64,000 nt of DNA from Mucilaginibacter rubeus. Its GTDB lineage: Bacteria > Bacteroidota > Bacteroidia > Sphingobacteriales > Sphingobacteriaceae. Under the pieces are notes generated by a model. The model had not been told where the DNA came from and did not search any database. It saw nothing but the letters and a program-made list of their open reading frames with translations. Below are positions 1,470 through 10,220 of the stretch, piece by piece. Within the stretch, counting starts at the first letter, position 1. The number at the start of each line of letters is the position of its first letter. The translations under genes and the position numbers were made by a program. The stretch spans positions 186,001-250,000 of the forward strand of contig NZ_BMKD01000007.1 of NCBI RefSeq assembly GCF_014643835.1. Reading direction: 5' to 3'.

Positions 1470-2363
1470 CTACGCTGATAACTTTTTATCGCCGGCCAGG
1501 TTGCGCATAAATCTTTTGCGGTAGTTAAGCGGACTCAGGTTCATTTTGGCTTTAAACATTTTATAAAAGTGCGATACATCGCCAAAGCCGCTCTCATAGG
1601 AGATCTCTGAAATAGGCTTATCTGTTTGCACCAGTTGCTGTATGGCATAATTAAGGCGATACTCAATTATAGTTTCCATGAATGTTTTGCGGGTAACTTT
1701 TTTAAAGTATTTGCAAAAAGCGTTCGGGGTCATATTGGCAATACCGGCCGCTTTATCTAATGATACATGTTTTCTGAAATTTTCAACCAGGTAAGCAAAT
1801 ACCGGGTTAATACGCTCACGCTCGGTATTTGAGCGCTCGCCAATAATGCGGTTCTGATCGAGCAGCACGTACTCTTCTGATGAAGCCATACGGTGCAGGA
1901 TCTCGAGCAAACCTATCAGCATCCTGAAATTGCTTTTCTCTTCAACCAGGCTAAGCAGCAGTTTGTTAACCTCGGCACGCGTTTCGCCATAAAATGACAC
2001 TCCGCAACCGCTTTGCTGAAAAAGTTTTTTGATGAGCTGAAGCTCAAATTTGTTAAAAAACTCCTCGCCCAAAAAAGCATCATTAAACTGGATCACCACC
2101 GCGCTTGCCTCGCGAAGCACTGTTTCATTGGGTTCAAGTTTCCAACAATGCGGCAGGTTAGAACCAAGCAACACCAGATCGCCGGACGCAAAATCTTCCA
2201 TGTGGCTGCCAACATAGCGTTTGCCGGTGCCGCTGATGATACACGTTAATTCATATTCTTCATGAAAATGATAAGGGGCATCAAATGCCAGCTTATCAAA
2301 TTTCCGTACCAGAAATGACTGCGTATTTGTAGGTTGAAGAACTTCGTACGACGCTTTTATCAT
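1470..2363 (-). CDS. AraC-family transcriptional regulator with cupin domain
   Basis: A 297-residue regulator. The N-terminal half is a cupin-like sensing domain (YHFHEEYELTCIISG, then GDLVLLGSNLPHCW), and the C-terminal ~100 residues form the double helix-turn-helix of AraC/XylS proteins (SLDKAAGIANMTPNAFCKYFKK and PISEISYESGFGDVSHFYKMFK). It is transcribed away from the phytanoyl-CoA dioxygenase-like gene across a 124-bp intergenic region, an arrangement typical of a regulator and its target. The ligand is unknown; such cupin-AraC proteins often sense sugars or sugar-like molecules. Confidence 0.92.
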   Translation of the reverse strand: MIKASYEVLQPTNTQSFLVRKFDKLAFDAPYHFHEEYELTCIISGTGKRYVGSHMEDFASGDLVLLGSNLPHCWKLEPNETVLREASAVVIQFNDAFLGEEFFNKFELQLIKKLFQQSGCGVSFYGETRAEVNKLLLSLVEEKSNFRMLIGLLEILHRMASSEEYVLLDQNRIIGERSNTERERINPVFAYLVENFRKHVSLDKAAGIANMTPNAFCKYFKKVTRKTFMETIIEYRLNYAIQQLVQTDKPISEISYESGFGDVSHFYKMFKAKMNLSPLNYRKRFMRNLAGDKKLSA

Positions 2364-2460
2364 TGCATATTTTAACGTAAATAAAATTCTAATTCAAATT
2401 ACGGATAAAATCATCCATAAATGTACCATTCATTTCATTTTTTTTCAACTAAAGTTAACC

Positions 2461-2468
2461 TTACTTTG
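2461..2468 (+). promoter_or_regulatory. Putative Bacteroidota -7 box for the PhyH gene
   Basis: TTACTTTG matches the Bacteroidota consensus TAnnTTTG at all but one position and lies 19 bp before the ATG at 2488, in the region shared with the divergent AraC gene. No clear -33 element was found. Confidence 0.35.
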
Positions 2469-2487
2469 AAATATAAACCTAAAAACT

Positions 2488-3309
2488 ATGGATACACAGA
2501 TCGCTCATTTACCGTCACTTGATAATTTTATAAAACTATCCAACCACAATATTAATGAATTTCGTGAAAAAGGCCATACCCTTGTACACGAAGTGCTTAC
2601 AAAAGATGAAATTGCTGCCTATCGCCCCGTAATTGTTGGCGCGGCCGACAGGTACAACACCGAAAAGCGCAAACTGGAAGAGCGCGACACTTATGGTAAA
2701 GCCTTTTTGCAGATCATGAACCTTTGGCAGGTTGATGAAGATGTTAAAACCTTTGTAATGGCCAAACGCCTGGCCAAAATTGCCGCCGACCTCATGGGGG
2801 TTGAAAATGTACGTATCTATCACGACCAGGCACTCTTTAAAGAACCCGGCGGCGGCCCTACCCCATGGCACCAGGACCAGTATTACTGGCCCATCGATAC
2901 CAACAATACGGTAACCCTTTGGATGCCCCTGGTTGATATTGATGTAAACATGGGTATGCTGACTTTTGCCTCGGGTTCATACGTTAATGGCGCTGTATTT
3001 AACCATGAAATTTCTGACGAATCGGAATCGGCGTTTGACAATTATGTGAAAGAGAAAGGATTTGAAATAACCCGCGCCCAAACCATGAAGGCCGGCGATG
3101 CAACCTGGCACCGGGGCTTCACTATTCACAATGCTCCCGGCAATAACTCAGACAAAATGCGCGAGATCATGACCATCATTTATGTAGCCGATGGTGCACG
3201 CGTTACCCCTTACAAAAACGAATGGCAAAAAAATGATCACCATAAATGGCTGATGGGTAAACCAATCGGGGATCTGATTGATTCGGAGTTGAACCCGAAA
3301 GTGCTCTGA
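2488..3309 (+). CDS. Phytanoyl-CoA dioxygenase (PhyH) family protein
   Basis: A 273-residue Fe(II)/2-oxoglutarate-dependent oxygenase of the PhyH family. The iron-binding triad can be read as H128-x-D130 (TPWHQDQYYW) and a distal His near residue 214 (FTIHNAPGNN), with an Arg about 11 residues later suited to binding 2-oxoglutarate. It should hydroxylate a small organic substrate in the cytoplasm; the substrate cannot be deduced. The divergent AraC regulator suggests inducible expression. The gene ends within a dispersed inverted repeat that separates it from the convergent egtD. Confidence 0.88.
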   Translation: MDTQIAHLPSLDNFIKLSNHNINEFREKGHTLVHEVLTKDEIAAYRPVIVGAADRYNTEKRKLEERDTYGKAFLQIMNLWQVDEDVKTFVMAKRLAKIAADLMGVENVRIYHDQALFKEPGGGPTPWHQDQYYWPIDTNNTVTLWMPLVDIDVNMGMLTFASGSYVNGAVFNHEISDESESAFDNYVKEKGFEITRAQTMKAGDATWHRGFTIHNAPGNNSDKMREIMTIIYVADGARVTPYKNEWQKNDHHKWLMGKPIGDLIDSELNPKVL

Positions 3310-3390
3310 CCCCCTCTAAATCTCCCCAAAGGGGGAGACTTTAAAATAGCTGTTAAAAGCCCTCTCCTTTGGAGAGGGTTGGGTGAGGTC
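3308..3390. repeat. Dispersed REP-like double-hairpin element
   Basis: This element exactly fills the gap between two convergent stop codons and is bounded by GACC and GGTC. It holds two hairpins: TCTCCCC/GGGGAGA at 3321-3338 and a perfect 8-bp stem CCCTCTCC/GGAGAGGG with a TTT loop at 3360-3378. The spurious peptide it encodes (SPNPLQRRG type) is one I recognise from many Bacteroidota intergenic regions, so it is probably a multicopy element. It may also act as a bidirectional terminator. Confidence 0.65.
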
Positions 3391-4378
3391 ACGCCGCTAC
3401 CCAAACCGCATCGATAAACCATTTTTTGGTATCAAAAAACTGACCTATCGGTTGAAAGCCTGTGTTTATGGCTATCTGATCGGTTTGCATAAGGGTGAAC
3501 TTTTGGGAGATCTCCATGTAGATGTATTCATCCTTCTTGAAATCTATTTTTTCGTTGCCGATGCTTACCTGCTGATCTTGCAAACTGATGAGGTAGCTTT
3601 TGCACGCCCCGGTTTCAGGATCGTAGGTTGGATAATGTTCAAACTTGCTTATATCAAAATTAGCATGCAGCTCGCGGTTAATGCGGCGTAACAGGTTGAG
3701 ATTAAACTCGCGGGTAATACCATCTTTGTCATTATAAGCAGCAAGGATAACTCGCGGGTCCTTCTTCAGGTCCATGCCAATTAACACCATATCCCCTTCT
3801 GATAGGTTATTCCTTAGCTCACCGCAAAACTCTATGGCCCCATCAAGTGGCATATTGCCAATGTTTGAACCTAAAAACAGCACCACTTTACGCCTTGGCG
3901 AAATAGCGGCGGCCTTTTTCAGCATCTCAAAATATTCGCCATTTAGTCCGGTGATCTTTAAGCCGGGCAAAGTTACGGGCAGGGTTATATTGAGATATGA
4001 TATTACATTATCTGAGATATCAATAGGCAAATAAGTAAAATCAGCTTTTTTATCCAGCAGATATTTAAGCAGGTAAGAGGATTTTGTGGCATCACCAGCA
4101 CCAAGTTCTATCAGGTCAAAAGCATCTCCATCGGCAATCAGCGCATCGCAGATTTCAGCGGTTTTTTCTGAAAATATCTCCAGTTCGCAGTTAGTCGGAT
4201 AGTATTCAGGGCAGTTCATGAGCTCCTGGAACAGCTTATCGCCATTTGCATCATAAAAATACTTTGAATTGAGGTGCTTTGGCTCCGCCTGCAGCCCTGC
4301 TACAACGTCGGCATAAAACTGCCTGTTTTCGGCACTTATGTCACAATTTACGGCTGTGGGTGTAAAGGCTTGGTTCAT
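3389..4378 (-). CDS. egtD: L-histidine N-alpha-methyltransferase EgtD
   Basis: EgtD trimethylates histidine to hercynine using three SAM, the first step of ergothioneine synthesis. The protein has the family start (KYFYDANGDKLFQELMNCPEYYPT), a SAM-binding glycine motif (LIELGAGDATKS), PIDIS, and FLGSNIGN. The late motif YMEISQKF keeps the Glu and Ser that in mycobacterial EgtD hold the histidine substrate. The ATG at 4378 is chosen because the 12 codons upstream begin with TTG and do not resemble the family. It lies 25 bp downstream of egtB as last gene of the operon. A hercynine-type product is well supported; the final thiol is inferred from egtB. Confidence 0.9.
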   Translation of the reverse strand: MNQAFTPTAVNCDISAENRQFYADVVAGLQAEPKHLNSKYFYDANGDKLFQELMNCPEYYPTNCELEIFSEKTAEICDALIADGDAFDLIELGAGDATKSSYLLKYLLDKKADFTYLPIDISDNVISYLNITLPVTLPGLKITGLNGEYFEMLKKAAAISPRRKVVLFLGSNIGNMPLDGAIEFCGELRNNLSEGDMVLIGMDLKKDPRVILAAYNDKDGITREFNLNLLRRINRELHANFDISKFEHYPTYDPETGACKSYLISLQDQQVSIGNEKIDFKKDEYIYMEISQKFTLMQTDQIAINTGFQPIGQFFDTKKWFIDAVWVAA

Positions 4379-4403
4379 AGATGTGGTGATGTTTTGTGTC
4401 AAT

Positions 4404-5555
4404 TTACCTCGCAAGTCTTATGCCAGTAAATTGCCATCGTAAATTTGTCTGAAAAAAATTGCGATATGTTGCACGACTATGACCCGGAGGTGTAACTTCT
4501 GACGCGCCGCGCAAAACTTTCTGGTTAACCATAAACTTGCCATTGTATTCGCCTATGGCACCCGGTGCTTTGGCAAAACCCGGATAAGGAAGGTAGGAAC
4601 TTTCTGTCCACTCCCAGCGGCGACCCCAGTTAAATTTCGAGGATACCGCTTCCCATTCAAATTCGGTTGGCAATCTCAAGCCCTTCCACGAAGCGTAAGC
4701 ATAGGCTTCAAAATAGCTGATATGGGTAACCGGATCTTTCAAATGAAGTGGCTCTAAACCGTGATAGGTATAGTTGTGCCATTCATTATCTATCAAATGC
4801 CAATATAAAGGCGCTTCAACCTTATTGGTTTTTACCCAATCCCAGCCTTCGGCATGCCAGTGCCGGAAATCATGATAACCGCCGCTGTTAATAAACTCCT
4901 GGTATTCGGCATTGGTTACCAGTTTAGGGCTTATTTGATATGCATTGAGATATACTTTATGGCGATTAAGCTCATTATCAAAACAAAAGCCATCGCCGGT
5001 AAAGCCTATTTCATAAATCCCTTCATCCATGCTGATAAAAGCATCATTCCCACCTTCATCAATATGAGGGGCAGTGTAATTTTTATTATAGGCAGGAAAC
5101 AGCGGGTTATGCCCCAGGATGTATTTAATATCCGTCATTAAAAGTTCCTGGTGCTGCTCTTCGTGGTTAAAACCGAGAATAAGGAGTTCTTTAACATCGT
5201 CGCTTACTTCGCCGCATAAAAAGCCCTCCATGGCCTCGTCAACATATTTACGGTAACTGTAAATTTCAATAACCGTTGGGCGGCTCAGATTGCCGCGGTC
5301 GGTACGGATCACGCGTGTGCCTACAGTTTCGTAGTAGCTATTAAAAACGAAGTTATAATCAGGATTATATTCCTTGTAACCCATGAAGTAGGGCTTAAGG
5401 ATAAACGTTTCAAAAAACCAGGTAACGTGCCCGATATGCCATTTAGGCGGACTAACGTCCACCACAGGCTGTACCACATAGTCTTCGGTTTGCAAATACG
5501 AGCAAATTTTTTCTGTACGTTGGCGTACCTCTTTGTACCGGGCTATTAAATCCAT
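4404..5555 (-). CDS. egtB: Ergothioneine-type sulfoxide synthase EgtB
   Basis: A 383-residue non-haem iron enzyme that joins hercynine to a thiol with O2. The N-terminal DinB-like domain supplies the iron ligands: a His in WHIGHVTWFFE and the HxxxH pair in NHEEQHQELL. The C-terminal half is a formylglycine-generating-enzyme/sulfatase-modifying fold (ISPKLVTNAEYQEFI, LRLPTEFEWEAV, ending RWQFTGIRLAR). It lies 5 bp downstream of the transporter gene and upstream of egtD. No egtC amidohydrolase or egtE lyase is in the operon, so the enzyme may use cysteine directly rather than gamma-glutamylcysteine; that point is inference. An ovothiol-type activity is less likely because a separate EgtD is present. 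Confidence 0.9.
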   Translation of the reverse strand: MDLIARYKEVRQRTEKICSYLQTEDYVVQPVVDVSPPKWHIGHVTWFFETFILKPYFMGYKEYNPDYNFVFNSYYETVGTRVIRTDRGNLSRPTVIEIYSYRKYVDEAMEGFLCGEVSDDVKELLILGFNHEEQHQELLMTDIKYILGHNPLFPAYNKNYTAPHIDEGGNDAFISMDEGIYEIGFTGDGFCFDNELNRHKVYLNAYQISPKLVTNAEYQEFINSGGYHDFRHWHAEGWDWVKTNKVEAPLYWHLIDNEWHNYTYHGLEPLHLKDPVTHISYFEAYAYASWKGLRLPTEFEWEAVSSKFNWGRRWEWTESSYLPYPGFAKAPGAIGEYNGKFMVNQKVLRGASEVTPPGHSRATYRNFFQTNLRWQFTGIRLAR

Positions 5556-5560
5556 CGATG

Positions 5561-7132
5561 TTATTTCTTATCCAAAAACTGTTTTAAGTTTGAAATTGTT
5601 TTAATCCCCAATTTCCTGGCCTGCTGCTGCCTCATCATTAAAGCGTAAGCATTGTTAAAACCAATGGGTTTAAGCCATTTAATTTGATATTTACTTTCAA
5701 ACTGTCGCTGTACGTAATTATATGTGCTATCCTTGTTTACCGTTACTTCATTAATTATTTCTGGCGATGCCTGTAAAATGGCCAGCAAGCCCGTCCCCGT
5801 ATATTCCGGGTAAAAATCTATCTGGTTATTGGTTAGCGCGTCAAAGCAAATTTTGGTGCCGCCAAGGCCTGTTTTGGTTGATACCTCATGATCTGTATAA
5901 CCCTTTATCAGCATGCTGTACATATTAGCCAGGATGTATTGTTCACCAAATATCTTTGAACCTATCCGCACTATACCATCGTTCCCGCCCCGTTCCGGTC
6001 GCCATAATTTATTGGCAACCAAAAAATCCTTTGCAACACGTTCGGGGCTTTGGTGAAGATAGTCGGTACGGTAATTTAAAACCGTCATGACTGAATCATT
6101 TATTTTGCCCGAAAGCAGGTTTAATGTCGGCTCAAGGTCAGGAAATTTTTTCAGGACATCATCGCGCACAATTGGCGCCGCATAGTATGGCGGAAAAATG
6201 TGCTTATCATCATCCAGTACAACCAAATCGTAAGCTTTTAACCTGCCATCAGTTGAGTATCCGCTGATCACGTCGAGATGTTTCTCAAACGCAGCTTTAT
6301 ACATTACAGCATCACTGATTACGATAGTATGGATCTTTAAGCCATATTTGCTCCTAAGGCCGAGGTCGCCGTCCTGCCTGCCCATAAACTCGGGCGTAAA
6401 ACCCGCGGTAAGCTTTCCTTCTGATTTTGCCGGGATGATATAGAACAGGCATAAAACAATCAGCAATACCGGAAAAGCATATACCACCCGTTTAAGCTTT
6501 TTAAAGCTGACCTTCTGCACCATCGACAGTAATAAATCAAAAATAACAGCAAGCAAGGCCGAAGGAATCGCCCCCGCCAGGATCATATTGGTATTATTAA
6601 GTGAGATCCCACCGAAAATAAACTCGCCCAAACCACCGGCTGCAATGAGCGAAGCCAGCGTTGCCACACCTACGTTGATCACCGTAGCGGTACGGATGCC
6701 CGCAAATATTACCGGCATAGCCAGGGGCAATTCTACCTTAAACAGTATTTGCCATTTGCTCATCCCCATAGCAACAGCAGCTTCTTTAACAGCCGCATCA
6801 ACCCCTAAAATGCCCGTGTAGGTGTTGCGGATAATGGGTAAAAGTGCATATAGCAATAATGCAACAATGGCTGGCTTAGGACCAATCCCTAAAAGCGGGA
6901 TCATGAAACCAAGCAACGCTATACTGGGAATTGTTTGCAGTACTCCTGCAATCCCTAAAACTATGCCTGATAATTGTTTTTTACGAACAATAAGAATGCC
7001 CAGCGGCAAGCCAACCAATACAGCTATGCACAACGAAATAAAAGTAAGCCCGATATGCTGCAAAGTTTGCTCCTGCAACTTGCCGGCCTGCTGCTGCATA
7101 AACTGCCATAAAGTTTGCTGTTGCTCATTCAT
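5561..7132 (-). CDS. ABC permease fused to circularly permuted betaine-type binding domain
   Basis: A 523-residue membrane protein. Residues 1-235 form an OpuCB/ProW-type permease with an EAA loop (AAVAMGMSKWQILF, about 118-131) and a final transmembrane helix (about 217-234). Residues 240-523 form a glycine-betaine-type periplasmic binding domain, but its two halves are swapped: the segment that normally ends the domain (GRQDGDLGL, GYSTDGRLKAYDL, FPPYYAAPIVR) comes first, and the normal start (IGSKIFGEQYIL, TGLGGTKICF, YPEYTGTGL, GFNNAYAL) comes last. Its position against egtB and its fused architecture resemble the ergothioneine importer EgtU. Likely substrate: a trimethylated histidine (ergothioneine or hercynine) or another betaine. 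It overlaps the ATPase gene by 8 bp. Confidence 0.88.
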   Translation of the reverse strand: MNEQQQTLWQFMQQQAGKLQEQTLQHIGLTFISLCIAVLVGLPLGILIVRKKQLSGIVLGIAGVLQTIPSIALLGFMIPLLGIGPKPAIVALLLYALLPIIRNTYTGILGVDAAVKEAAVAMGMSKWQILFKVELPLAMPVIFAGIRTATVINVGVATLASLIAAGGLGEFIFGGISLNNTNMILAGAIPSALLAVIFDLLLSMVQKVSFKKLKRVVYAFPVLLIVLCLFYIIPAKSEGKLTAGFTPEFMGRQDGDLGLRSKYGLKIHTIVISDAVMYKAAFEKHLDVISGYSTDGRLKAYDLVVLDDDKHIFPPYYAAPIVRDDVLKKFPDLEPTLNLLSGKINDSVMTVLNYRTDYLHQSPERVAKDFLVANKLWRPERGGNDGIVRIGSKIFGEQYILANMYSMLIKGYTDHEVSTKTGLGGTKICFDALTNNQIDFYPEYTGTGLLAILQASPEIINEVTVNKDSTYNYVQRQFESKYQIKWLKPIGFNNAYALMMRQQQARKLGIKTISNLKQFLDKK

Positions 7133-8087
7133 GGGCCTGATGGTTTTTATATTGATAAAAGGCCGTCATCAGTTGTTCAAAGCTTACAGTTTTAACCTGG
7201 TTTTGATCTTTGCTGATATTAATGGTTTCGCCGTTATTAAATTTAAAACTCTCCAGGGCCTCCCACAGGTTAGTACCGGCATCAAAAGATGAGGCTTTCG
7301 CTTCTTTATTTAATTCAGGCAATAATTCCCAAAGATCGATCAGCTTAATGGCCTTAAATTCCAGTTGCAGGCGCTGATGTTTCAGAAAATCCTTTACAAA
7401 ATCATTGACAGGATTAAAAAGCAATTGAGCAGGTGTGCCCGACTGTACAATTTTCCCTTTATCCATCAGGCAGATCCTGTCGCCCAGTTCAAAAGCTTCC
7501 TGTACATCGTGTGTAACCATGATGATGGTTTTGCGCTTCAGCTCATCGAGGGCTTTAAATTCGGCGTGGATCTTCGAGCGGGTAACATTATCCAGCGCAC
7601 CGAAAGGCTCGTCCATCAGCAACACCGGCGGATCCGACACCAATGCTCTGGCCAGGCCAATGCGCTGCTGCTGGCCACCGCTCAGTTCGTTAGGGTAAAT
7701 ATTCAGATACGAAGCATCGAGATGGAGTTTTTCCATTAGTTCGGCCGTGCGCTTTTCAGTTTTCTGTTTATCCCATTTTAACAGATTAGGCACAACAGCG
7801 ATATTTTGAGCAACCGTATAATGCGGAAACAAGCCATTATTTTGCAATACATAGCCAATTCCGCGGCGCAGGATTTCAGGCTGCTGCTCCATGATATTTT
7901 TACCATGAATGTAAATACAGCCCTGGGTTGGCTCAATAAGGCGGTTGATCATTTTTAGCGTGGTGGTTTTACCGCAGCCGCTGGTGCCTAACAAAATGAG
8001 GTTCTCCTGCTCCTCTACCTCGAAAGATACCCCATCAACCGCTTTAACCCCGCCAAAATATTTGCTTACCTTATCAACCTTGATCAT
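7125..8087 (-). CDS. Betaine/ergothioneine-type ABC transporter ATPase
   Basis: A 320-residue ATP-binding subunit of the OpuCA/ProV type (EgtV-like by context). It shows Walker A GTSGCGKTT, the signature LSGGQQQRIGLARAL, Walker B VLLMDEPFGALD and the switch His in MVTHDVQEAF. The C-terminal ~80 residues after the nucleotide-binding domain do not show clear CBS motifs. The ATG at 8087 is preferred to an upstream TTG because it gives the family start MIKVDKVSKYFGG and leaves 10 bp after the reductase stop codon. It energises the fused permease/binding protein encoded next. Confidence 0.9.
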   Translation of the reverse strand: MIKVDKVSKYFGGVKAVDGVSFEVEEQENLILLGTSGCGKTTTLKMINRLIEPTQGCIYIHGKNIMEQQPEILRRGIGYVLQNNGLFPHYTVAQNIAVVPNLLKWDKQKTEKRTAELMEKLHLDASYLNIYPNELSGGQQQRIGLARALVSDPPVLLMDEPFGALDNVTRSKIHAEFKALDELKRKTIIMVTHDVQEAFELGDRICLMDKGKIVQSGTPAQLLFNPVNDFVKDFLKHQRLQLEFKAIKLIDLWELLPELNKEAKASSFDAGTNLWEALESFKFNNGETINISKDQNQVKTVSFEQLMTAFYQYKNHQAHE

Positions 8088-8097
8088 GCGCGCCGGT

Positions 8098-9483
8098 TTA
8101 ATCCCCAAGGGTCATGAAAAGGTTGTTCAGTGATTCGGAATACAACGGGTGGGCAAAAACACAATAGCGGATCCTATCGTAAGTAATACCGCCTTCCATG
8201 GCCATTTGCAGCACAGTCATGATTTCCCCGCCTTCGGGGCCAAGTACCGTAGCGCCTAAGATCCTTTTTGTATCGGGATCAACAATGGCTTTCATAAAGC
8301 CACGCGTATCGCCGGTTTCAATAGCACGCGCCACATGGGCCATGGGCAGCTTTGCTACTTTATGTTTAATCCCCAGCTTTTTTGCTCCCGTTTCATCCAA
8401 GCCGATCCTGCCCAGTTGCGGATCGGTAAACATGCAATAAGGCACCGGACGGTCCTGGATGTTATAATCCGTTTTTTCAAAAAGGTTACGGTAAACAATA
8501 GTATAATCGTTGTAGGAAATATGTGTAAACGCCGGGCCGCCCTTTGCATCGCCAAGTGCGTAAACACCGGTGGCAGTAGTTTCCAGCTTGTCATTTACTT
8601 TGATATTACCATGCTCATCCGTTTCAATCCCGGCGAAGGGCAAATTCAAAGCCTCCGTTTGCGGTTTACGGCCGATGGCCACCAATACATGGGTGCATTT
8701 GATTTTGCGCTCCTCCCCTTTTTGAGCTATCGTCGCTGTTATTTTGCCGCCGGCTTTTTGTTTAAACTTAAGGGCCTGGGCATTATTTAAGATCTCGATT
8801 TTTTCCAGTTCGAGGATCTTTTGCATCTCTGCCGAAATATCCTCATCCTCGTGCGAAACTATCCGCTCCGATTTTTCTAAAATGGTAACTTTACTGCCAA
8901 ACCGCCGAAACATTTGCCCAAACTCCAGTCCAATGTAATTTCCGCCAAGCACAAGCAGATGCTCCGGTACTTCTTCCAAATCAAGTATGGTGGTTGAGTT
9001 GAGATATTTTATCTCATTCAATCCTTCAATTTCGGGAATCAAAGGCAGCGCGCCGGGGTTTAAAAAGATAAGATCGGCAGTAATCGTTTGCTTTTTGCCG
9101 CTGTTAAGCTTAACCTCAACCGTTTTTTCGCCGGTAAAAGTCGCCTCGCCCAACACCACATCGAGGTTCTGTGTTTTTTCGGCAGATTTTAGTCCGCCAT
9201 TACGCGAGCGTAATACGATATCATCCTTACGTTTTTTTATGGCGGCAAGATCAACCGAAAACTTTTTTACAGGCACGCCCAATTCATAACTTTTACCGGC
9301 CATGTAAGCCGCCTTTGCCGAAGCAACCATGGTTTTAGTAGGCGTACAGCCATCGTTAACGCAAGTACCGCCATAAAATCGTTTCTCAATTATAACGGTC
9401 TTTTTTCCGGCATTAGCCAATTTTTTGGCTAATGGGGCGCCGGCCTGACCGGCGCCTATAACAATGGCATCGTATGTTTTCAT
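8098..9483 (-). CDS. FAD-dependent pyridine nucleotide-disulfide oxidoreductase
   Basis: A 461-residue class I flavin disulfide reductase. It has the FAD dinucleotide fold (IGAGQAGAPLAKK), a redox-active pair C41-x4-C46 (GGTCVNDGCTPTK), a NAD(P)-binding fold (VLGGNYIGLEFGQMF), the ALGDAKGG FAD motif, and the dimer-interface His-Pro (VFAHPLYSESL) that serves as acid/base in the partner subunit. Databases tend to call such proteins mercuric reductases, but there is no N-terminal HMA domain, no C-terminal Cys pair and no mer gene nearby. In this operon a role in reducing a disulfide, possibly of the ergothioneine-type thiol, is an attractive but unproven guess. It is 4 bp downstream of the DUF427 gene. 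Confidence 0.88.
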   Translation of the reverse strand: MKTYDAIVIGAGQAGAPLAKKLANAGKKTVIIEKRFYGGTCVNDGCTPTKTMVASAKAAYMAGKSYELGVPVKKFSVDLAAIKKRKDDIVLRSRNGGLKSAEKTQNLDVVLGEATFTGEKTVEVKLNSGKKQTITADLIFLNPGALPLIPEIEGLNEIKYLNSTTILDLEEVPEHLLVLGGNYIGLEFGQMFRRFGSKVTILEKSERIVSHEDEDISAEMQKILELEKIEILNNAQALKFKQKAGGKITATIAQKGEERKIKCTHVLVAIGRKPQTEALNLPFAGIETDEHGNIKVNDKLETTATGVYALGDAKGGPAFTHISYNDYTIVYRNLFEKTDYNIQDRPVPYCMFTDPQLGRIGLDETGAKKLGIKHKVAKLPMAHVARAIETGDTRGFMKAIVDPDTKRILGATVLGPEGGEIMTVLQMAMEGGITYDRIRYCVFAHPLYSESLNNLFMTLGD

Positions 9484-9487
9484 AGCT

Positions 9488-9769
9488 TTATTCGGTAATT
9501 TTCACGCCCTTCCAAAACGCCACATAGTTGGTAATGTTTTTTGCAGCATCTTTTGGTTCGGGATAATACCACGCGGCATCCTGGTTTTCTTTGCCGTCAA
9601 CTTCAAGGGAATAGTATGATGCCAGCCCCTTCCACGGGCAGGTTGTATGCACGTCGGACGGTTTAAGGTACTCGGCCTTAACACTTTCTTTAGGGAAATA
9701 ATGATTATTTTCAACAACAATAGTGTCATTGCTTTCGGCAATGACCTGGTTATTCCAGATAGCTTTCAT
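9488..9769 (-). CDS. DUF427 domain protein
   Basis: A 93-residue cytoplasmic protein that is a single DUF427 domain: it begins MKAIWNNQVIAES and contains the typical NNHYFPKESV, TTCPWKGLASYYSLEVDG and AAWYYPEP segments. The function of the family is not established. It is the first gene of the six-gene ergothioneine-type operon, 4 bp ahead of the disulfide reductase, so it may take part in thiol or redox chemistry; this is context only. Confidence 0.85.
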   Translation of the reverse strand: MKAIWNNQVIAESNDTIVVENNHYFPKESVKAEYLKPSDVHTTCPWKGLASYYSLEVDGKENQDAAWYYPEPKDAAKNITNYVAFWKGVKITE

Positions 9770-9963: not shown

Positions 9964-10035
9964 GGCCCGTTCGTCTAGGGGTTAGGACAGGAGATTTTCA
10001 TTCTTCAAACAGGGGTTCGATTCCCCTACGGGCTA
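9964..10035 (+). tRNA. tRNA-Glu (TTC), copy 1
   Basis: A full cloverleaf can be folded: acceptor GGCCCGT/ACGGGCT with a G1-U72 wobble, D arm with GGTTAG, anticodon loop TTTTCAT giving anticodon TTC, and T loop TTCGATT. The discriminator A at 10035 is followed by an encoded CCA (10036-10038), unlike copy 2. A terminator-like hairpin follows 13 bp later. Confidence 0.96.
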
Positions 10036-10047
10036 CCACAAGACACG

Positions 10048-10143: not shown

Positions 10144-10215
10144 GGCCCGTTCGTCTAGGGGTTAGGACAGGAGATTTTCATTCTTCAAACAGGGGTTCGA
10201 TTCCCCTACGGGCTA
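10144..10215 (+). tRNA. tRNA-Glu (TTC), copy 2
   Basis: Identical over all 72 bases to the copy at 9964-10035, and preceded by the same AAATCAAGGGAAACAA leader (here from 10121), so the two arose by a ~180-bp tandem duplication. CCA is not encoded after the discriminator base. No TAnnTTTG box was found directly upstream, so it may depend on read-through from copy 1. Confidence 0.96.
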
Positions 10216-10220
10216 CATGG

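Follow-up and report, generated by a model that had tools for sequence, protein, structure and literature searches.

Analysis of a 64,000-nucleotide stretch of Mucilaginibacter rubeus DNA (contig NZ_BMKD01000007.1, positions 186,001 to 250,000; the window) revealed a six-gene minus-strand operon that, in our reading, makes, recaptures and re-reduces ergothioneine; we put the probability of this reading at roughly 0.55. The locus is a real and conserved ergothioneine operon built as a variant of known parts, and what is new in it is an importer with an apparently permuted capture domain and the link of DUF427 and its neighboring reductase to ergothioneine. EgtD would trimethylate histidine to hercynine and EgtB would add the sulfur, chemistry that is established for the two families, while the final lyase is presumably encoded outside the operon. 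The capture domain, tethered via its second lobe, would allow the importer to retrieve a trimethylammonium histidine compound, most likely ergothioneine and possibly hercynine, from the periplasm or soil. The reductase and DUF427, the latter possibly being the small cysteine protein that contacts the substrate, would use NAD(P)H to regenerate the thiol from oxidised ergothioneine, be it the disulfide or the sulfenic acid. This reading bears on two questions, how oxidised ergothioneine is re-reduced and why producers would keep importers.

The preliminary description of this DNA had recognized six codirectional genes, and the coordinates and family models bear this out (Table 1); from DUF427 to egtD, consecutive genes are spaced by 4, -11, -8, 5, and -11 bases. 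The closest relatives are from Mucilaginibacter, with up to 98% identity in the permease/binding-domain fusion protein. EgtB, which is well over its curated cut-off, contains the EgtB motifs WHIGH and HEEQH and matches solved structures PDB 8qf6, 6qki, and 6o6l at E ~2e-116; one of its best matches is labeled Cabther EgtB, presumably from Chloracidobacterium. EgtD falls slightly under the narrower TIGR03438 equivalog cut-off (284 versus 290.9 bits) and matches the solved structure PDB 4uy6 (E 2.6e-47). As judged from these models, EgtB and EgtD are genuine members of their families. Selenoneine and ovothiol synthesis were rejected, as the SenA (343.5 versus 420 bits) and OvoA (94.8 versus 400 bits) models both scored below cut-off. 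The earlier statement that egtC and egtE are absent holds within the operon: none of the nine proteins scanned in or beside it is an egtA, egtC, or egtE product. The operon shares EgtB and EgtD with the actinobacterial egtABCDE cluster, as described in excerpts of PMC13209761, and differs from it in carrying a transporter, a reductase, and DUF427 and in having none of those three genes among the proteins scanned.

Table 1. Genes of the ergothioneine operon in the window, with family-model scores
Gene product	Position	Strand	Family evidence
DUF427 protein (93 aa)	9488..9769	minus	Pfam PF04248, 120.1 bits (cut-off 22.1)
FAD/NAD(P)H disulfide reductase (GGTCVNDGC, HPLYSE)	8098..9483	minus	Pyr_redox_2 + Pyr_redox_dim
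ABC importer ATPase, ProV-like	7125..8108	minus	ABC_tran; best model ProV, TIGR01186, 303.9 bits, just under cut-off 326.6
Permease fused to predicted circularly permuted type II substrate-binding domain	5561..7132	minus	BPD_transp_1 + OpuAC
EgtB sulfoxide synthase	4404..5555	minus	TIGR03440, 528 bits (cut-off 360)
EgtD histidine trimethyltransferase	3389..4414	minus	PF10017, 321.8 bits (cut-off 23)

The fusion protein sets the importer apart. Both Pfam and PDB relatives split its OpuAC match into two stretches in swapped order, a feature that the preliminary description had missed, with residues 236 to 374 aligning to residues 134 to 272 of the EgtUC chain and residues 390 to 518 aligning to residues 10 to 134. 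This order (permease, second half, first half of the binding domain) is that of 102 relatives, termed type A, whereas 31 Bacteroidota loci, termed type B, have the unpermuted order of first half, second half, and then permease. A profile built from the 31 type B domains was run on the type A proteins both in their natural form and with the halves rearranged by script. The natural proteins gave a median model coverage of 51% at 109 bits, with the second half of the model coming first in 102/102; after rearrangement, median coverage rose to 97% at 224 bits and was at least 90% in 102/102. By these alignments, the type A binding domain is circularly permuted relative to EgtUC/ProX at all 102 loci. 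With the lobe borders of EgtUC taken from excerpts of PMC9732360, the permutation cut falls in lobe 2, so that the membrane tether would shift from lobe 1, as in EgtU, to lobe 2. Another naturally permuted ABC binding protein is TpMglB-2, for which the authors suggest a possible adaptation to tethering; according to excerpts of that report (PMC4990184), it is a cluster B sugar binder and a lipoprotein, whereas the window domain belongs to cluster F and is fused to a permease. No permuted cluster F binding domain was found among the matches listed in the literature searched.

The six-gene arrangement is not due to chance. The reductase, ATPase, egtB, and egtD all lay within 3 kb of the transporter at 60 of the 65 type A loci with sufficient flanking sequence, and DUF427 was additionally present within 3.5 kb at 36 of those 60. 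A set of 80 related loci, the best 80 of 110, shares some genomes with the 53 loci described below. The preliminary description had named a transporter/reductase block that always stands apart from egtB and egtD as the pattern that would speak against it; these 60 linked loci show the opposite. It had also proposed a search for co-occurrence in Bacteroidota, which we carried out on 395 genomes. EgtD was counted as present in 128 of them (132 were over the Pfam cut-off, and four with at most 63.3 bits were dropped), fused-transporter matches below 140 bits were dropped (the rows seen were permease only, with at most 98.9 bits), and the reductase was counted at E<=1e-100. EgtB exceeded its cut-off in 113 genomes, all with EgtD. 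A fused transporter was present in 53 genomes (22 type A and 31 type B), of which 52 carried EgtD (22 and 30, respectively; Fisher p 2.7e-28 for both types together, uncorrected for kinship), and egtB or egtD lay within 10 kb of the transporter at 16/22 type A and 6/31 type B loci. The reductase was found in 32 genomes, 32/32 with EgtD. DUF427, surveyed in 80 random genomes with EgtD and 80 random genomes without it, occurred in 47/80 and 0/80, respectively; a family-stratified test on those 160 genomes (the product of within-family probabilities, with few informative families) gave p 0.0003 for this association.

DUF427, which had been left unexplained in the preliminary description, is thereby tied to ergothioneine genes, and the tie is reinforced by a 477-aa DUF427-EgtB fusion at one locus (L174; L numbers denote loci and G numbers genomes), with both parts over cut-off. 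Across 34 aligned DUF427 sequences, C44, in the motif CPWKG, is the only invariant cysteine. CxxxxC and HPxxxE are the catalytic motifs of class I flavin disulfide reductases, and among 104 relatives scoring above 330 bits, GGTCxxxxC is present in 96 and HPxxxE is present in 103. The window enzyme shares its fold and both motifs with RclA, MerA, and mycothione reductase, but it falls short of the cut-off in all 25 top-scoring curated families shown, its best model being PRK06370.1-4 (521.9 versus 629 bits). Its scores for RclA, MerA, lipoamide dehydrogenase, and mycothione/glutathione reductase were all below the equivalog cut-offs. In 49 single-locus DUF427-reductase pairs, both genes were on the same strand throughout and DUF427 came first in 48, with overlapping reading frames in the remaining pair (L083); the 49 include one pair spaced by 595 bases in Deinococcus (L187). 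At L160, the 15 kb examined contain the pair and no egt gene; elsewhere, DUF427 follows egtD (L176) and a reductase precedes egtB-egtD (L148). In a reductase tree (FastTree, midpoint root, no support values shown), which was not used as evidence, the egt-linked reductases of several lineages group with plasmid-borne ones. No paper naming DUF427 together with ergothioneine, or naming ergothioneine, Bacteroidetes, EgtB, and EgtD together, was found in the literature searched; one paper was listed there for the link between the reductase and ergothioneine.

Several observations weigh against the reading that the operon makes, recaptures, and re-reduces ergothioneine, and the first of them concern the ligand pocket of the importer. 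The best solved match of the fusion protein is Streptococcus pneumoniae EgtUC, with choline-type binding proteins scoring close behind. The ligand residues of EgtUC, taken from excerpts of PMC9732360, were compared across the 133 proteins of both types. The tyrosine cage (positions 341, 419, and 443) and K242, T296, N339, E375, and R379 are invariant in 133/133; every type A protein has T275, with T or S at this position in type B, and I243 is kept in 91/102 type A proteins and 0/31 type B proteins. At the position of G244, however, there is F in 98/102 type A proteins (Q in 4) and in 31/31 type B proteins, and the positions of F293 and Y337 are occupied by Y and F in all 133. According to the same source, G244 and the Y-to-F switch (F293/Y337) contribute to the ergothioneine affinity of EgtUC, the glycine-betaine-binding AfProX carries F at 244, and a lower ergothioneine affinity is ascribed to Helicobacter pylori EgtU (PMC9732360). 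The window importer resembles EgtU in the fusion of a permease to a cluster F-III, OpuAC-type binding domain, in its ATPase, and in the contacts K242, T296, Y341, R379, Y419, and Y443, together with T275, N339, and E375; it differs in its permuted rather than canonical domain order and in the changes G244 to F, F293 to Y, and Y337 to F. It also sits with synthesis genes, whereas the excerpts of PMC9732360 treat bacteria that are unable to make ergothioneine, and producers would hardly need to import it. As the pocket is without two ergothioneine determinants, the cargo stays between ergothioneine, hercynine, and other betaines. Hence, of the earlier claim that the locus both makes and imports a trimethylhistidine thiol, synthesis is well supported by the EgtB and EgtD models, while import of ergothioneine is not borne out by the pocket residues and domain order.

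In the alignment to PDB 8dp6, which, like 8dp7, we take to be H. pylori EgtU, the states Y293, F337, and N339 are the same as in the window protein, and the differences lie in P at 243, S at 244, and the unpermuted order. This bears on a rather unlikely alternative, in which the importer would be an ordinary compatible-solute transporter (for glycine betaine, choline, or carnitine) standing beside the egt genes, with ergothioneine being made and not imported. F244, Y293, and F337 match AfProX (excerpts of PMC9732360 and alignment), the ATPase is ProV-like, choline-type proteins follow EgtUC closely in score, and 76 of the 128 genomes with EgtD are without the fused transporter. Yet 52 of the 53 carriers have EgtD, in two architectures that are both found in egt loci, and N339 is kept, whereas AfProX has D at this position. 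Moreover, Y293 and F337 are not peculiar to AfProX, being shared by the presumed H. pylori EgtU (8dp6).

Further points against the operon acting as a whole on ergothioneine come from the distribution of its accessory genes. In the stretches examined, 6/22 permuted and 25/31 unpermuted transporters had no egtB or egtD within 10 kb, and one transporter genome (G147) was without an EgtD match. In the family-stratified test, the transporter association was only modest (p 0.025) and the reductase association was not significant (p 0.36); the DUF427-EgtD signal is separable from kinship in this sample, and the reductase signal is not. The earlier suggestion that the reductase keeps a disulfide reduced is accordingly favored by its presence exclusively in genomes with EgtD and by its tandem pairing with DUF427, and not by the family-stratified test. 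Among 14 control genomes, DUF427 was found only in Deinobacterium, and EgtD was over cut-off only in Escherichia coli and Methanosarcina. Plasmids add to these points. DUF427 is present on plasmid records from Klebsiella (26), Acinetobacter (28), and Citrobacter (8), none of which is represented among the 51 EgtD-bearing plasmid records, and the single Klebsiella DUF427 locus examined is a grxC islet whose annotation shows no egt gene in the surrounding 6 kb. In plasmid gene tables, which are incomplete, no egt gene was annotated within 6 kb of DUF427 on Picosynechococcus, Kitasatospora, Mycolicibacterium, and Sphingomonas plasmids, and no accessory gene was annotated alongside egtBD of the Persicobacter and Hymenobacter plasmids. 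Reductases ~46% identical to that of the Aquincola plasmid described below occur on Rhizobium plasmids (57 records).

Other plasmids carry the accessory and egt genes together. Nine plasmid records, hosted by Aquincola, Comamonas, Comamonadaceae, Achromobacter, and one Pseudomonas, have an EgtD at least 71% identical to that of Aquincola (itself included), and DUF427 and the reductase are present on all nine. These two genes abut in seven records, where egtD follows on the same strand after 2.6 to 2.7 kb; in AP026971 and CP079746, DUF427 and egtD are ~4 kb apart and the best reductase match is elsewhere on the record. The run DUF427, reductase, two genes, egtB, and egtD stands on an Aquincola and a Comamonas plasmid, and on a Sinorhizobium mexicanum plasmid a span of 4.5 kb includes egtB, DUF427, and egtD. 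The two plasmid islands with that run (L190 and L193) are annotated as msrA, redoxin, SelO, msrB, OsmC, DUF427, reductase, two oxidoreductases, egtB, and egtD; the L193 island adjoins IS1071. The plasmid islands are probably a single mobile island and hence represent few independent events. This company of msrA, msrB, SelO, and redoxin, together with the grxC islet and the nonsignificant within-family result for the reductase, is what would be expected if DUF427, the reductase, and the transporter belonged to a general stress response and were found beside egt genes because of an aerobic, oxidative-stress lifestyle, without acting on ergothioneine. We consider this unlikely, given that DUF427 was found in none of the 80 genomes lacking EgtD, that its association persists within families, and that it is fused to EgtB.

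Genomes that use an O2-independent sulfur chemistry provide another comparison. All 15 genomes with EgtD and without EgtB carry a rhodanese EanB, 48 to 100% identical to a query from one of them, so a hercynine-only metabolism in these genomes was rejected. The best solved matches of the query are 6ktv (E 1e-210) and 6h98 (E 4e-208), deposited as sulfurtransferases and presumably Chlorobium EanB, and in 80 control genomes (40 with EgtD and EgtB, 40 without EgtD), some match was seen in 32, none above 86.2 bits. The transporter is present in 7 of the 15 genomes, and so is the reductase, suggesting that the accessories follow the product and not a single sulfur chemistry. The EanA/EanB route of Chlorobium differs from that of the window in using EanB in place of EgtB; near EanB, DUF427 and the reductase were found in one genome each, with DUF427 between EanB and EanA in G386 (L147) and the reductase ~2.6 kb from EanB in G152 (L140). 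Most EgtD relatives have been noted to come from species that also possess an EgtB-like or EanB-like enzyme (excerpts of PMC9516567).

The EanB genomes bear on two further alternatives. It is quite improbable that the importer supplies preformed hercynine to EgtB or EanB: the ergothioneine-selective residues are missing from the pocket and the transporter occurs with both routes, to which hercynine is common, but 52 of the 53 carriers have EgtD and can produce their own hercynine. A role of the reductase and DUF427 confined to the end of biosynthesis, where they would reduce the sulfenic acid left by the C-S lyase, is more doubtful still. EgtE does release a sulfenic acid, which has to be reduced and for which dithiothreitol serves (excerpts of PMC4493562), and reductase/DUF427 operons do include egtB. 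Yet both proteins also occur in EanB genomes, as in G386 and G152, where EanB transfers sulfur from polysulfides (excerpts of PMC9516567); this favors recycling of ergothioneine once it has been made.

As for the missing lyase, the EgtE model TIGR04343 did not exceed 400 bits in any of 17 related genomes (best, 153). A conserved lyase within the operon was rejected, being absent from most loci: a class V pyridoxal phosphate (PLP) enzyme, scoring far below the EgtE cut-off, is present in only 6/80. It heads the operon at four Pedobacter loci (L062:6484-7665, L063:6467-7669, L069:6185-7354, and L077:6545-7714), where it may be the C-S lyase that the operon lacks, and lies nearby downstream in L015 and L018. 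Another class V enzyme is found near egtBD in L175 and L176.

A number of other genes were seen at these loci. The nearest genome has a second EgtD paralogue, 57% identical, beside dehydrogenase-like genes as judged by eye (L197:6643-7620, minus strand), with no EgtB match in the 14 kb examined. In L140, between EanB and the reductase, the C-terminal half of an EgtD is joined to a carboxymuconolactone decarboxylase-like domain (7135-7869, minus strand). A conserved protein of 83 to 85 aa, with MDIKFV at or near its start, directly precedes egtD in six EgtB-less genomes (L097, L101, L139, L141, L142, and L143), and in one EanB genome a short EgtB-like stretch before egtD (L137:7170-7691; 54% identity over 52 aa) is perhaps an EgtB remnant. 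In the window, two tandem tRNA-Glu(ttc) genes (9964-10038 and 10144-10216, plus strand) lie close to the operon, on its upstream side and on the other strand. An AraC regulator and a PhyH dioxygenase lie downstream (1470-3309) and recur in only 20/80 related loci; they are not counted as members of the system.

A wider role is conceivable, at somewhat less than even odds, in which DUF427, as a small cysteine protein, and its partner reductase form a dedicated NAD(P)H-driven ergothioneine redox system that is used by both O2-dependent and O2-independent makers, has been carried between phyla, and was joined in Sphingobacteria to an importer with a permuted domain. DUF427, the reductase paired with it, and the importer with its two architectures are three concrete candidates, each of which gains a testable role, and DUF427 is tied to ergothioneine genes both by fusion and, in the sampled Bacteroidota, by its presence only in genomes with EgtD. 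The apparent relocation of the membrane tether, from lobe 1 in EgtU to lobe 2 here, would offer a natural test of how the topology of a binding domain affects transport.

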